A DNA stretch of 64,000 nucleotides, taken from positions 153,591 through 217,590 of the forward strand of contig PYIZ01000009.1 in the NCBI GenBank assembly GCA_003635265.1, given 5' to 3'. Position numbers and translations under genes: made by a program. The stretch comes from Candidatus Poribacteria bacterium. Lineage in GTDB: Bacteria > Poribacteria > WGA-4E > PCPOR2b. The notes under the pieces are model-generated. The model saw only the letters and a program-made list of their open reading frames with translations. It had not been told where the DNA came from and searched no databases. Each line of letters opens with the position of its first letter. Within the stretch, counting starts at the first letter, position 1. Shown piece after piece: positions 8,708 to 12,142 of this stretch.

Positions 8708-9271
8708 TTACCTCTTCAAAAAATTCTCCAACAGTTTTTTTCCCTCAACGGTCAAAATCGACTCTGGATGGAACTGCACCCCCCAGATCGGGTAGTCTGT
8801 GTGCCGAAATCCCATAATTTCGTCTTGGAGTGTCCACGCGGTGAGTTCGAGACAATCCGGGAGTGTCTCCTTTTTCACAATGAGGGAGTGGTAGCGTGTC
8901 GCCTCAAACGGGTTTTCGAGGTCGTCGAAAATCTGCTTGCCGTTGTGATGGATCATTGACGTTTTGCCGTGCATCAGCCGTTCGGCGCGAACGACATCGC
9001 CGCCAAAGACATCGCCGATACACTGATGCCCCAAGCAGACGCCGAGAAGGGGCACACGCCCGGCAAATTGACGGATCAGATCGCAGGAGATGCCCGCTTC
9101 CCGTGGCGTGCAGGGACCCGGCGATATGACAATCTTTTCAGGGGCGAGATCCTCTATCTGGTCGAGCGTGATTTTGTCGTTGCGATGCACAACAAGATTC
9201 GCTCCCAACTCGCCGAGATATTGCACGAGGTTGTAGGTGAATGAATCGTAATTGTCAATCATGAGTATCAT
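8708..9271 (-). CDS. trpG: Anthranilate synthase component II, glutamine amidotransferase (TrpG/PabA)
   Basis: This 187-residue class I glutamine amidotransferase supplies ammonia from glutamine to TrpE for anthranilate formation. The catalytic triad is C79 in LLGVCLGHQ, with H168 and E170 in GVQFHPES. Length matches stand-alone TrpG/PabA. AGGAGA lies upstream. It is separated from trpE by one methyltransferase-like gene, all on the minus strand. TrpG may also serve as PabA for folate synthesis in bacteria with one copy, and this window shows no pabB to decide. Confidence 0.92.
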
Positions 9272-9282
9272 GGGTTCTTCTC

Positions 9283-9969
9283 CTAACCGTTTCTGCGGAT
9301 TCTCATCATCTCATTGCCGCCTTTCTGGAATTCATAAGGCACGCGACAAATATCAACCGTAAATCCAGCTTCCGAAAAATGCGATTGAATCGGTGCAACG
9401 TAGGACGATTTCTCGCAATTCAACGTCAACAGCGGGAAAATTCGCACCTCTTGAGAAACGCGACAGAGTTCCTGTATAGAATCCCGATGAAAATCGAAAG
9501 ATAGTTGAACAGAATATAGAAAGAACAGATGCGAGCAGAGTGCTAAATCGAACTGGCAATCGGTGAAATTGAGTGTGGGCAGAGACGCAGGCAGATAACG
9601 TCCTTGCATCTTTCCCGCCTCAAAATCTTCCAGAAACTTCCTCATGGTTTCAAGACGGTAGTGCCCCCAATGCGCTGGATCCGAAAAGAAATCCCAAACG
9701 AAGTTGTCGGACTTCCGCTCCACTTGAGAGATCATGTTATCGTAGTTCTCTTCAATTCTCCGCTCGATCTGTGCTCTTGAAAACGAGTAGATCGGATCAA
9801 CTGACAGAACCGTATGCCCCAAGGTGTTCATCTCGGTGTTAAAACTGGCAGGTCCGTCACCGACGCCGAGGATCCGTAAGTTCAGTTCCTCAGCCGAGAG
9901 ATTGAACATCTGCGTGTACTCTTGCAGCGATCTTCCCCAAGGGATAACTTTATTAAGTGTTACGCTCAC
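9283..9969 (-). CDS. SAM-methyltransferase-like protein embedded between trpE and trpG
   Basis: This 228-residue protein starts at a GTG with AGGAGG 7 nt upstream. [33 protein letters not shown] resembles a SAM-binding motif I plus the acidic end of strand beta2. [13 protein letters not shown] sits where motif IV of class I methyltransferases lies. The C-terminus is unlike the methyltransferases at 1377 and 8079. It lies 21 bp after trpE and 11 bp before trpG, so it is co-transcribed with tryptophan genes. I do not know a role for such a protein in tryptophan synthesis. Function unassigned. Confidence 0.65.
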
Positions 9970-9990: not shown

Positions 9991-11475
9991 CTACTCTAAT
10001 CCCGCTTCAGCGAGTTCAATGGCTCTTAACACCGCTCGTGCCTTGTTGATCGTTTCTTCATACTCCGTTTCGGGCACAGAGTCTGCGACGATGCCACCTC
10101 CCGCTTGGACGTAGGCGATTCCGTCTTTGACGACGAGCGTGCGAATCGTGATTGCTGTATCCGCGTTTCCGGAGAAACTGAAGTAGCCGACGGCTCCGCC
10201 GTAAGGTCCTCGCCGCGTCGGTTCAAGTTCATCGATAATCTCCATCGCCCGGATCTTGGGTGCACCGGACAACGTCCCAGCGGGCAAGCAGGCGCGAATC
10301 ACATCGTAAGGGGTTTGCCCTTCGCGCAACTCTCCGATAACGTGCGAAACAATGTGCATCACGTGTGAGTACCGTTCGACTACCATCATCTCACTCACAC
10401 GCACCGTGTGGTATTCGCAAACACGCCCCAAGTCGTTGCGTCCGAGATCAACGAGCATGACGTGCTCTGCTCGTTCCTTCGGATCCGCAAGCAGTTCCGT
10501 CCCCAATGCCTCATCTTCGGCTGGAGTCGCTCCACGTGGGCGGGTTCCTGCGATTGGGCGCATCTCCGCAACACTGTCCTCAACGCGCACCATCATCTCA
10601 GGTGAGGCACCCGCAATCTGGAGTTCATCAAACTTGAGGTAGAACATATAAGGTGAGGGGTTCACGGTACGCAAAGCACGATACGCATCGAATGTATCGA
10701 CCGATATCGGCACGCTAAAACGTTGCGATGGCACAACCTGAATGATGTCCCCTGCGGCGATATACTCCTTCGCTCGAAGGACAACCTGATGGTAATCCTC
10801 CTTCGTGAAGTTTGAAGTGACAGGCACACCGCTTGGACGGGCAGCTGGCTTATTGGTATAATTCATCAACAGCGGCTGCTTGAGTTTAGCGATGAGTTCA
10901 TCAATCTGATCAAGTGCTTTTTCATAGGCTTGGTCAATATCGCCGTTGATGTGGGCGTTGGCGACCACCTTTATCTGATGGTTCACATGGTCAAATACAA
11001 GCAGGGTATCGGTGACCATGAAAAAGCAATCGGGTAGCTCGCGATCATCTTCGGTGGTGTCGGGGAGTTCTTCGACGTAACGCACCATGTCGTAGTTCAG
11101 GTAGCCGACCGCCCCACCGTGAAACCGCGGCAATCCCTCGACCTCAACGGGTTGGTAGTGAGTCATCAACTCTTCAAGTACCTCTAGCGGGTCTTCGGTT
11201 TCCTGTTCAACCGTCTCTCCGGTGCGAAGGTCATCAATCTGGACTAGATCGCCCTTGCCCCTAAGTAGGATTGATGGGTCACTGCCAAGGAACGAGTATC
11301 GAGCGACGTGTTCGCCGCCTTCGACGCTCTCCAACAAGAATGCGTGATCGTTCCCTCCGATTTTGTAAAACGCGGACACAGGTGTTTCCATATCCGCCAG
11401 CATCGTCTTGTAGACGGGAATCAAGTTTCCGTGTTGCGCTTTTTCTCTAAAATCTTCTAGGTTTGGGTAATACAT
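9991..11475 (-). CDS. trpE: Anthranilate synthase component I
   Basis: This 494-residue TrpE converts chorismate plus ammonia to anthranilate, the first committed step of tryptophan synthesis. The N-terminal LLESVEGG segment is the site associated with tryptophan feedback binding. The C-terminal chorismate-binding domain shows PIAGTRPRG, DLGRNDLGRVC and AGGGIVADS. Length and motifs are full and normal. AAGGAGA precedes the ATG. It lies 20 bp after hisI. Its partner TrpG is encoded one gene downstream. Regulation by transcription attenuation is supported by the leader and terminator upstream of hisI. Confidence 0.95.
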   Translation of the reverse strand: MYYPNLEDFREKAQHGNLIPVYKTMLADMETPVSAFYKIGGNDHAFLLESVEGGEHVARYSFLGSDPSILLRGKGDLVQIDDLRTGETVEQETEDPLEVLEELMTHYQPVEVEGLPRFHGGAVGYLNYDMVRYVEELPDTTEDDRELPDCFFMVTDTLLVFDHVNHQIKVVANAHINGDIDQAYEKALDQIDELIAKLKQPLLMNYTNKPAARPSGVPVTSNFTKEDYHQVVLRAKEYIAAGDIIQVVPSQRFSVPISVDTFDAYRALRTVNPSPYMFYLKFDELQIAGASPEMMVRVEDSVAEMRPIAGTRPRGATPAEDEALGTELLADPKERAEHVMLVDLGRNDLGRVCEYHTVRVSEMMVVERYSHVMHIVSHVIGELREGQTPYDVIRACLPAGTLSGAPKIRAMEIIDELEPTRRGPYGGAVGYFSFSGNADTAITIRTLVVKDGIAYVQAGGGIVADSVPETEYEETINKARAVLRAIELAEAGLE

Positions 11476-11495: not shown

Positions 11496-11876
11496 TCAGT
11501 ATACTGCATCTGGGTCAAAAACCTTTTCACCAACGATGCGCGTAGAGTTGCCATCGGGGGAGACTTCCCGAAAGAAGCAGGAACGGTAGCCGACGTGGCA
11601 CGCCCCGCCTTTCTGTTCGACTTTGATTAGTAGCGCATCGGCATCGCAATCAAAGGCGACCGTTCGCACGGTTTGCGTGTGCCCTGAAGTCTCCCCCTTG
11701 ATCCAGTATTCCTGGCGGGAGCGGCTCCAGAAGCAGACACGCCCTGATTCGAGTGTTTTCCGCACAGCCTCACGGTTCATGTAGCCGACCATGAGAACCT
11801 CTTTGTTTTCATCATCCTGTATAATGGCAGGAATTAAACCGTTCTGATCGGTCTTGAGTTGATTTAGGATTTCCAT
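11496..11876 (-). CDS. hisI: Phosphoribosyl-AMP cyclohydrolase
   Basis: HisI opens the purine ring of phosphoribosyl-AMP in histidine synthesis. Key segments are [17 protein letters not shown] and the zinc/metal residues in FDCDADALL and [10 protein letters not shown]. The protein is HisI only; there is no C-terminal HisE domain. I chose the ATG at 11876 because AGGAGA lies just upstream, whereas a start at 11894 would put the ribosome site inside the gene. It is the first structural gene after the attenuator and is followed by trpE. The pairing of a histidine and a tryptophan gene matches the mixed His and Trp codons in the leader peptide. Confidence 0.92.
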
Positions 11877-11907
11877 TTTTTCTCCTCGCTTCACAGAAAA
11901 TAGGCAG

Positions 11908-11951
11908 AAAAAAAGCCGTAGACAATCAGGGTCGTATGCCTACGGCTTTGG
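11908..11951 (-). terminator. Transcription attenuator of the hisI-trp operon
   Basis: Reading the minus strand, AAAGCCGTAG (11949-11940) pairs perfectly with CTACGGCTTT (11921-11912) across an 18-nt loop. A run of T follows, ending at about 11908. This is an intrinsic terminator placed between the leader peptide and hisI. An alternative helix is possible: CTTTGG (11972-11967) with CCAAAG (11951-11946), which would occupy the 5' arm and act as antiterminator. Further upstream, GGCACTG over the Trp codons (12027-12021) can partly pair with CAGTGTGCC (11996-11988). Confidence 0.85.
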
Positions 11952-11974
11952 TTTATAGATATGAGTCCAAAGGT

Positions 11975-12076
11975 TTATCTCAGCAAAGGCACACTGCTCC
12001 CCTCAACACGATGCCACCACCAGTGCCAATGATGAGATGCGATTTGAAATTGTGGTTGTCGGTTCAGGGTTTGCAT
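11975..12076 (-). CDS. trpL: Leader peptide with His and Trp codon run (TrpL-like)
   Basis: This is a 33-residue leader ORF, too short for ordinary gene calling. Residues 15-22 read HHWHWWWH: four Trp codons (17, 19, 20, 21) and four His codons (15, 16, 18, 22), encoded at 12034-12011. AAAGG lies 5 nt before the ATG. A promoter lies 37-66 bp upstream and a terminator hairpin starts 24 bp after the stop. This is the classic attenuation layout: ribosome stalling at scarce Trp-tRNA, and perhaps His-tRNA, would favour the antiterminator and expression of hisI and trpE. Dual amino acid sensing is my inference. Confidence 0.88.
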   Translation of the reverse strand: MQTLNRQPQFQIASHHWHWWWHRVEGSSVPLLR

Positions 12077-12112
12077 AGTACCTTTCAACTTCCTATTCCT
12101 CAGATTGTGTAA

Positions 12113-12142
12113 AGCATATCACAATTCCAGTTTCGGTGTCAA
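12113..12142 (-). promoter_or_regulatory. Sigma-70-like promoter of the trpL-hisI-trpE operon
   Basis: On the minus strand TTGACA (12142-12137) is followed after 18 bp by TATGCT (12118-12113). It precedes the leader peptide ATG by about 37 bp. It lies in the intergenic space after the sugar isomerase-like gene, so the operon has its own start. Confidence 0.75.

Follow-up and report, generated by a model that had tools for sequence, protein, structure and literature searches.

A leader with His and Trp codons as a putative dual-sensing attenuator of hisI-trpE operons in Candidatus Poribacteria

Introduction

In Candidatus Poribacteria, the hisI-trpE operon is preceded by a short leader peptide in which codons for histidine and tryptophan are clustered, and this leader likely acts as a ribosome-mediated transcription attenuator that is read for both His and Trp with OR logic. 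The His codons follow the presence of hisI in the operon: they are found in all 68 leaders linked to hisI, and they number 0, 0, 0, and 1 in four homologous leaders located on trpE without hisI. Dual sensing of His and Trp, which the first-pass annotation had guessed from one locus, is well supported by this comparison across the phylum. One leader apparently reads the ends of two separate pathways, and the contrast between operons with and without hisI shows the codons following the genes. It makes testable how regulation stays coherent once genes of different pathways join in one operon, and it points to attenuation in an uncultured phylum.

Organization of the Locus

The source genome belongs to Candidatus Poribacteria as judged by the closest named relatives of its TrpE (92, 88, and 73% identity, all from that group); the remaining 77 TrpE relatives among the matches listed show at most 60% identity to the TrpE of the window (the whole 64-kb stretch of DNA that was analyzed). 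The leader and the operon both lie on the minus strand, which the first-pass annotation left unnamed. A promoter-like site comes first, followed by the leader, an antiterminator/terminator pair with a T-run, and then the genes hisI-trpE-ORF-trpG (Table 1). A short ORF with His and Trp codons is placed ahead of the cognate biosynthetic genes hisI and trpE/trpG. The span 11908-12142 fits the element, as the -35-like TTGACA starts at 12142 and the T-run ends at 11908. The 33-residue leader with HHWHWWWH and four codons of each amino acid, as described in the first-pass annotation, was verified in the minus-strand sequence, and the hairpin with T-run reported after it was also recovered. The gene order given there, hisI then trpE then trpG, holds for the first two genes; trpG is present but separated from trpE by an intervening ORF, for which no match was found in NCBIfam or Pfam.

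Table 1. Features of the leader and operon in the window
Feature	Position	Strand	Remarks
Sigma-70-type promoter-like site	12113..12142	-	-35 TTGACA at 12142-12137, 18-nt spacer, -10 TATGCT at 12118-12113; assigned by consensus match only
Leader peptide ORF	11975..12076	-	33 aa and stop, MQTLNRQPQFQIASHHWHWWWHRVEGSSVPLLR; ATG at 12076, stop at 11977-11975; 4 His and 4 Trp; conserved in relatives
Regulatory codon cluster H H W H W W W H (segment 1)	12011..12034	-	CAT CAT TGG CAC TGG TGG TGG CAT
Segment 2, GTGTGCC	11988..11994	-	Candidate partner of segment 3 (antiterminator) or of GGCAC of the Trp/His codons (segment 1)
Segment 3, GGCATAC	11934..11940	-	Within the 5' arm of the terminator; candidate antiterminator partner of segment 2
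Intrinsic terminator hairpin	11912..11949	-	By folding, about -19.5 kcal/mol
Terminator T-run	11908..11914	-	7 T; first three paired in the hairpin model
hisI, phosphoribosyl-AMP cyclohydrolase	11496..11894	-	NCBIfam equivalog above cut-off; sole hisI match found in the genome
trpE, anthranilate synthase component I	9991..11475	-	TIGR00564, 604.5 bits (cut-off 517.7); 20 nt past hisI
228-aa ORF, family unassigned	9283..9969	-	Between trpE and trpG; operon spacing
trpG, anthranilate synthase component II	8708..9271	-	Fourth gene of the operon

The promoter-like site agrees with the consensus at 10 of 12 positions, with a spacer of 18; four such sites were obtained in a scan of 5.1 kb, compared with a mean of 5.1 in shuffles. 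Sites with at least 9 of 12 matches are located upstream of 61 of the 71 leaders examined, a count that has no shuffle control. The hisD gene of the same genome is found on another contig, adjoining a MurA-like gene (named from a reading of its sequence), and no His-only leader was found in 14 kb near it.

Distribution of the Leader in Poribacteria

HisI was searched in 58 genomes (the window genome and relatives from its order) and then in all 84 genomes of the phylum, and TrpE likewise. A single hisI match per genome was obtained in 78 of the 79 matching genomes, with two in G036. Eighty-one of the 84 genomes were tabulated; the three left out are G076, in which trpE was not matched, and two genomes with weak trpE matches, PabB-like or partial (G064, G067). 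W/H motifs served in part to locate the leader frames, and that of G066 was picked by eye. The leader is present in 72 of the 81 genomes. Within the order, a leader whose core resembles [H/N/D]-H-W-H-W-W is found ahead of hisI at 53 of 59 loci (the window's own among them, G036 counted twice); together with the diverged forms seen in other families, this indicates that the leader is more than a chance occurrence.

All 68 leaders located before hisI carry both His and Trp codons, with a His within codons -3 to +6 of the first core Trp; both codon types, whose conservation in relatives the first-pass annotation had put forward as a check, are thus retained. The core contains one His in 9 of these leaders, two in 32, three in 19, and four in 8, and at least two His are present in the leader ORF of 67. 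The exception is G060, hisI-linked, with a single His three codons before the Trp run (DHICWWPWW). The contig continues into trpE in 66 of these cases; in G025 and G036 it breaks off before trpE is reached, the leader again standing ahead of hisI. Contig C149 of G036 holds a second hisI, which was excluded from the counts, and 52 of the 68 linked leaders come from one family, f3. In G081 (L197) and G083 (L199), the core is interrupted in frame by a partly palindromic insert of about 13 codons and reads HW...WWH, and owing to this insert the His at position +1 is absent.

In nine of the 81 genomes no leader was found. The contig of G012 ends 92 nt before hisI (the terminator is present), those of G039 and G077 end near hisI, G062 has trpE 182 nt from the contig end and no hisI match, and in G079 hisI lies on a separate contig whose upstream region was outside the survey. 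No leader was found in the 415 nt available in G061, nor, by the motif used, in G016, G045, and G070, where hisI-trpE is present. The gaps between hisI and trpE (78 sequences) contained no second leader, apart from two short matches and a GTGTGC stretch in G016 and L038. The gap of G016 (L202) reads AGTGTGCCTGTA...CAAGATCC and resembles segment 2 and the following stretch of the trpE leader in G011; hisI may have been inserted into the leader in this genome.

Two leader-hisI copies are found in G036, a member of f3, on contigs C149 (L008, L149) and C3 (L060). On C149, the leader and hisI are f1-like, matching the window at 86% DNA identity across 566 nt, and the trpE that follows is f3-like, with 89% identity to G038 and 68% to the window; an f3-like copy lies at the end of C3. 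The leader and hisI may have been transferred as a unit, or the contig may be misassembled. Another irregularity concerns G005, in which trpE was matched as two overlapping pieces (G005:C103:34871-36327), suggesting a frameshift.

The hisI-trpE pair was also seen outside Poribacteria. In seven loci of other groups (L068-L073 and L087, Omnitrophota among them), hisI ends an apparent his cluster, recognized by eye with no family search, and trpE comes next. At these loci and at L118 (other phyla, hisI-trpE), no H/W leader was found in about 400 nt upstream of hisI, the starts of the seven his-cluster operons lying beyond that reach. The hisI-trpE pair may descend from a his-trp cluster or may have arisen in parallel to it.

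RNA Architecture and the Proposed Mechanism

A folding check of the 235-nt leader RNA was advised in the first-pass annotation; the RNA of 11895-12100 folds better than all 200 of its dinucleotide shuffles (z -2.89). By folding, a terminator-like hairpin was called in 71 of the 81 genomes, and in the window it is placed between the leader ORF and the first gene; for the window locus, a simple but stricter consensus terminator scan listed none. A terminator-like hairpin can be recognized in the sequences of G060 and G068. A search of the 64-kb window with Rfam 15 at gathering score gave no match to a T-box or another catalogued RNA family.

In the window, segment 2 (GUGUGCC) can pair with GGCAUAC of the terminator 5' arm, and in G000 an equally good duplex was formed by 4 of 200 shuffles. 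The pairing is kept through sequence changes, as GUGUGC/GCACAC in most of f3, UAUGCCUGC/GUAGGCAU in f8, AGUGUGUCC/GGAUACACU in f9, and GUGUGUCC/GGACACAU in f10. The duplex beats 95% of shuffles (at most 10 of 200 as good) in 35 of 68 leaders, with a mean z of -2.07, and is at chance level in several f3 members (147 of 200 shuffles as good in G036, 127 in G029) and in G066 (95). The antiterminator, named as a possibility in the first-pass annotation and exclusive of the terminator, shows compensated changes across families and is weak in some f3 members and G066.

The effect of a paused ribosome was considered in a simple footprint model, in which the freed RNA begins 13 nt past the start of the A-site codon and the transcript ends before the 3' arm of the terminator. 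The model set comprised 69 leaders, one of them the second G036 copy; leaderless genomes and G060, G068, G081, and G083 (terminator uncalled or core unmatched) were omitted from both the stall and the duplex tests. For f3 (n=50), mean antiterminator pairing amounted to 11.9-12.4 nt at offsets 0 to +5, with core His/Trp codons in the A site, 6.4 at +8, and 3.3 at +10, compared with 6.8 nt without a ribosome. For f1/f2 (11 rows, including the second G036 copy), the values were 13.1-14.3, then 6.3 and 2.5, and 7.2 without a ribosome. According to the model, a ribosome paused at a core His or Trp codon would leave the antiterminator able to form, both codon types being located where a pause permits antitermination. 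Upstream codons are also permissive; hence the model sets a downstream limit only and does not single out the core. As to a hairpin of segments 1 and 2 before any ribosome is bound, ribosome-free antiterminator pairing differs among leaders, being low in G000 (2.6 against about 15) and high in G009 (16.6) and G066 (15.4).

From the sequence and this model, we infer ribosome pausing, a response to His, and OR logic. When charged tRNA-His and tRNA-Trp are both plentiful, the ribosome would clear the H/W cluster and cover segment 2, segment 3 would fold into the terminator, and transcription would stop before hisI. When either charged tRNA is scarce, the ribosome would pause in the H/W cluster and leave segment 2 free; segments 2 and 3 would then pair, the terminator would not form, and hisI-trpE-ORF-trpG would be transcribed. 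A shortage of His or of Trp alone probably turns the genes on. If the only hisI of a genome stood behind a Trp-only attenuator, plentiful Trp would shut off His synthesis, a conflict that His codons in the leader would remove.

Leaders of trpE without hisI

Four homologous leaders stand directly before trpE in operons without hisI and keep the RNA architecture (a like segment 2 and a terminator). Their peptides are Trp-only or nearly so: RFWRWWWRSV (G058), RNWCWWWRNE (G059), VKRWWYTSW (G014), and VSRWRHIDRS (G011), the last holding the single His in the 127 residues of the four ORFs. Arg or Cys replaces His in the cores WRWWW and WCWWW, the others being KRWWYT and RWRH. No hisI was found upstream of trpE in 2.1-2.5 kb (G058, G011, G014) or in the 627 nt available (G059). 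G059, G011, and G014 carry the gene on a different contig, and no match was found in the genome of G058. In G011 and G014 this hisI is of a distant type (about 50% identity), which suggests replacement of the formerly linked hisI. Among outgroups, a Desulfobacterales contig on which trpE has no hisI nearby contains an ORF that reads SNWCWWWSSGG, a comparison made at the level of the peptide. The first-pass annotation had named homologous leaders with Trp codons only as evidence against its proposal; such leaders exist (G058, G059, G014), yet they are restricted to trpE operons without hisI, which supports dual sensing rather than refuting it.

A TrpE tree with 34 Poribacteria and 4 outgroups (38 rows) was used to place these genomes. 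G058 and G059 branch off at the base of the phylum (support 86/66 for the clade that unites the remaining Poribacteria), and G011 and G014 are nested in the order, among families with the hisI link, where G016 is their sister (99/92). The four unlinked genomes thus form two separate clades and provide two independent contrasts only, with which a sign test, for which at least six would be required, cannot reach 0.05. Traits were mapped on 29 rows, consisting of 27 leader-bearing Poribacteria and two outgroups coded manually as lacking both hisI and His. Linkage requires two changes on this tree and the His trait (at least two His in the last 30 residues) four, the mismatches being G060 and G081, in which the insert pushes the upstream His outside the counted stretch. 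For two independent pairs, the His trait changed in the same direction as linkage in 1.8 on average (200 pairings) and never in the opposite one.

The simplest reading of this history is that a Trp-only leader came first, and that His codons were gained with hisI and lost in G011/G014. We lean, with some reserve, toward a broader proposal, an attenuator that follows its cargo: a Trp-only ancestor would have gained His codons with hisI, selection on decoding would have kept them, and they would have been lost on the exit of hisI, with the OR gate operating phylum-wide. The leader and hisI may also move as a unit, as the two copies in G036 would allow.

Codon Choice and Alternative Explanations

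The debatable issue is whether the His codons are kept for the residues they encode or for the RNA they form. In 60 leaders of f1-f3 (G081 and G083 excluded), core position +1 is CAT in 55, CAC in 4, and CGT in 1, whereas sixteen genes of the window use 79 CAT and 93 CAC. This near-invariance indicates a contribution from RNA-level constraint or shared ancestry as well. At position -1, it is chiefly the first base that varies (GAT 4, TAT 3 of 60). It can be argued that the attenuator senses Trp only and that the His codon is kept since TGGCAT of segment 1 must pair with segment 2 or mimic segment 3 (GGCAUAC); GGCAC/GGCAU is indeed able to pair with GUGCC of segment 2, and the nearly invariant CAT codons agree with this. 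However, CGT (Arg) could pair as well, through G-U wobble, and is the codon of G058, yet it occurs at +1 once in the 60 leaders, and that leader (VIHWRWWHS) retains two flanking His. In f5, f7, and f8, His is kept at shifted positions (HHHWCWWH, WWWHWRGH, GHWHWGW, WRHWHWR, YHRHWRRLRH). Six leaders of these families have 17 His in 161 residues, encoded by 10 CAT and 7 CAC; a naive binomial gives 7e-7 at 2.5% background, a value biased small, as the frames were partly chosen by motif. Such turnover of positions with both codons makes a fixed RNA motif an unlikely cause, and in f7/f8 the His are mostly outside the TGGCAT context. Since the unlinked leaders also retain the attenuator architecture with little or no His, we consider sensing of Trp alone unlikely.

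Shared ancestry would mean that the ancestor of the linked clade acquired its His codons a single time, by chance, and that their match with hisI is a coincidence. This reading draws on the small number of independent contrasts and on the share of f3 among the linked leaders. The number of His is maintained in f1, f7, and f8 while their positions turn over, and the nested G011/G014 lineage without a hisI link has 1 and 0 His, which makes coincidence very improbable. TnaC is an arrest peptide that senses free Trp. A nascent chain of this kind, sensing free Trp or another ligand through H/W residues acting in the exit tunnel, would agree with the strong conservation of the short aromatic/His motif within f1-f3. 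It is hardly credible here, as the order and spacing of the motif differ between families, the operon is biosynthetic, and the unlinked leaders are simple Trp runs. Attenuation by a leader decoded for both His and Trp accounts for these observations better.

Comparison with Known Systems

In E. coli, trpL is the leader attenuator of the trp operon. A short ORF, tandem UGG codons, an antiterminator, a terminator with a U-run, and trp genes are common to trpL, to the Actinobacteria trp leaders in the part of PMC1262725 available to us, and to the leaders of Poribacteria; the hisI-linked ones differ in adding His codons in or around the Trp run and in having hisI as the first gene. In the same part of that source, the UGG repeats of the Actinobacteria leaders are double or triple, and histidine operons of that group are described as lacking a conserved RNA structure (PMC1262725). 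The accessible portion of PMC1183508 models trp and his attenuators as separate cases, and no dual leader appears in the corresponding portions of PMC10138114 and PMC8632094. Two papers found with both "Poribacteria" and "leader peptide" concern natural products, as judged by title. No report of a His+Trp leader was found in the literature searched, outside which most subscription papers lie, so that absence from print is not established.

The leaders described here share with the enterobacterial his attenuator the use of leader His codons in the control of a his gene. The enterobacterial leaders carry a His-only run and control the whole his operon, and to our knowledge they contain no Trp run, whereas the Poribacteria leader mixes in Trp codons and precedes hisI as the only his gene. 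Multivalent leaders are present in E. coli, namely thrL (Thr, Ile) and ilvL (Ile, Val, Leu), which likewise combine several regulatory amino acids in one leader. The amino acids of thrL and ilvL, however, share one branched pathway, whereas His and Trp are the ends of separate pathways, joined in Poribacteria by the content of the operon.
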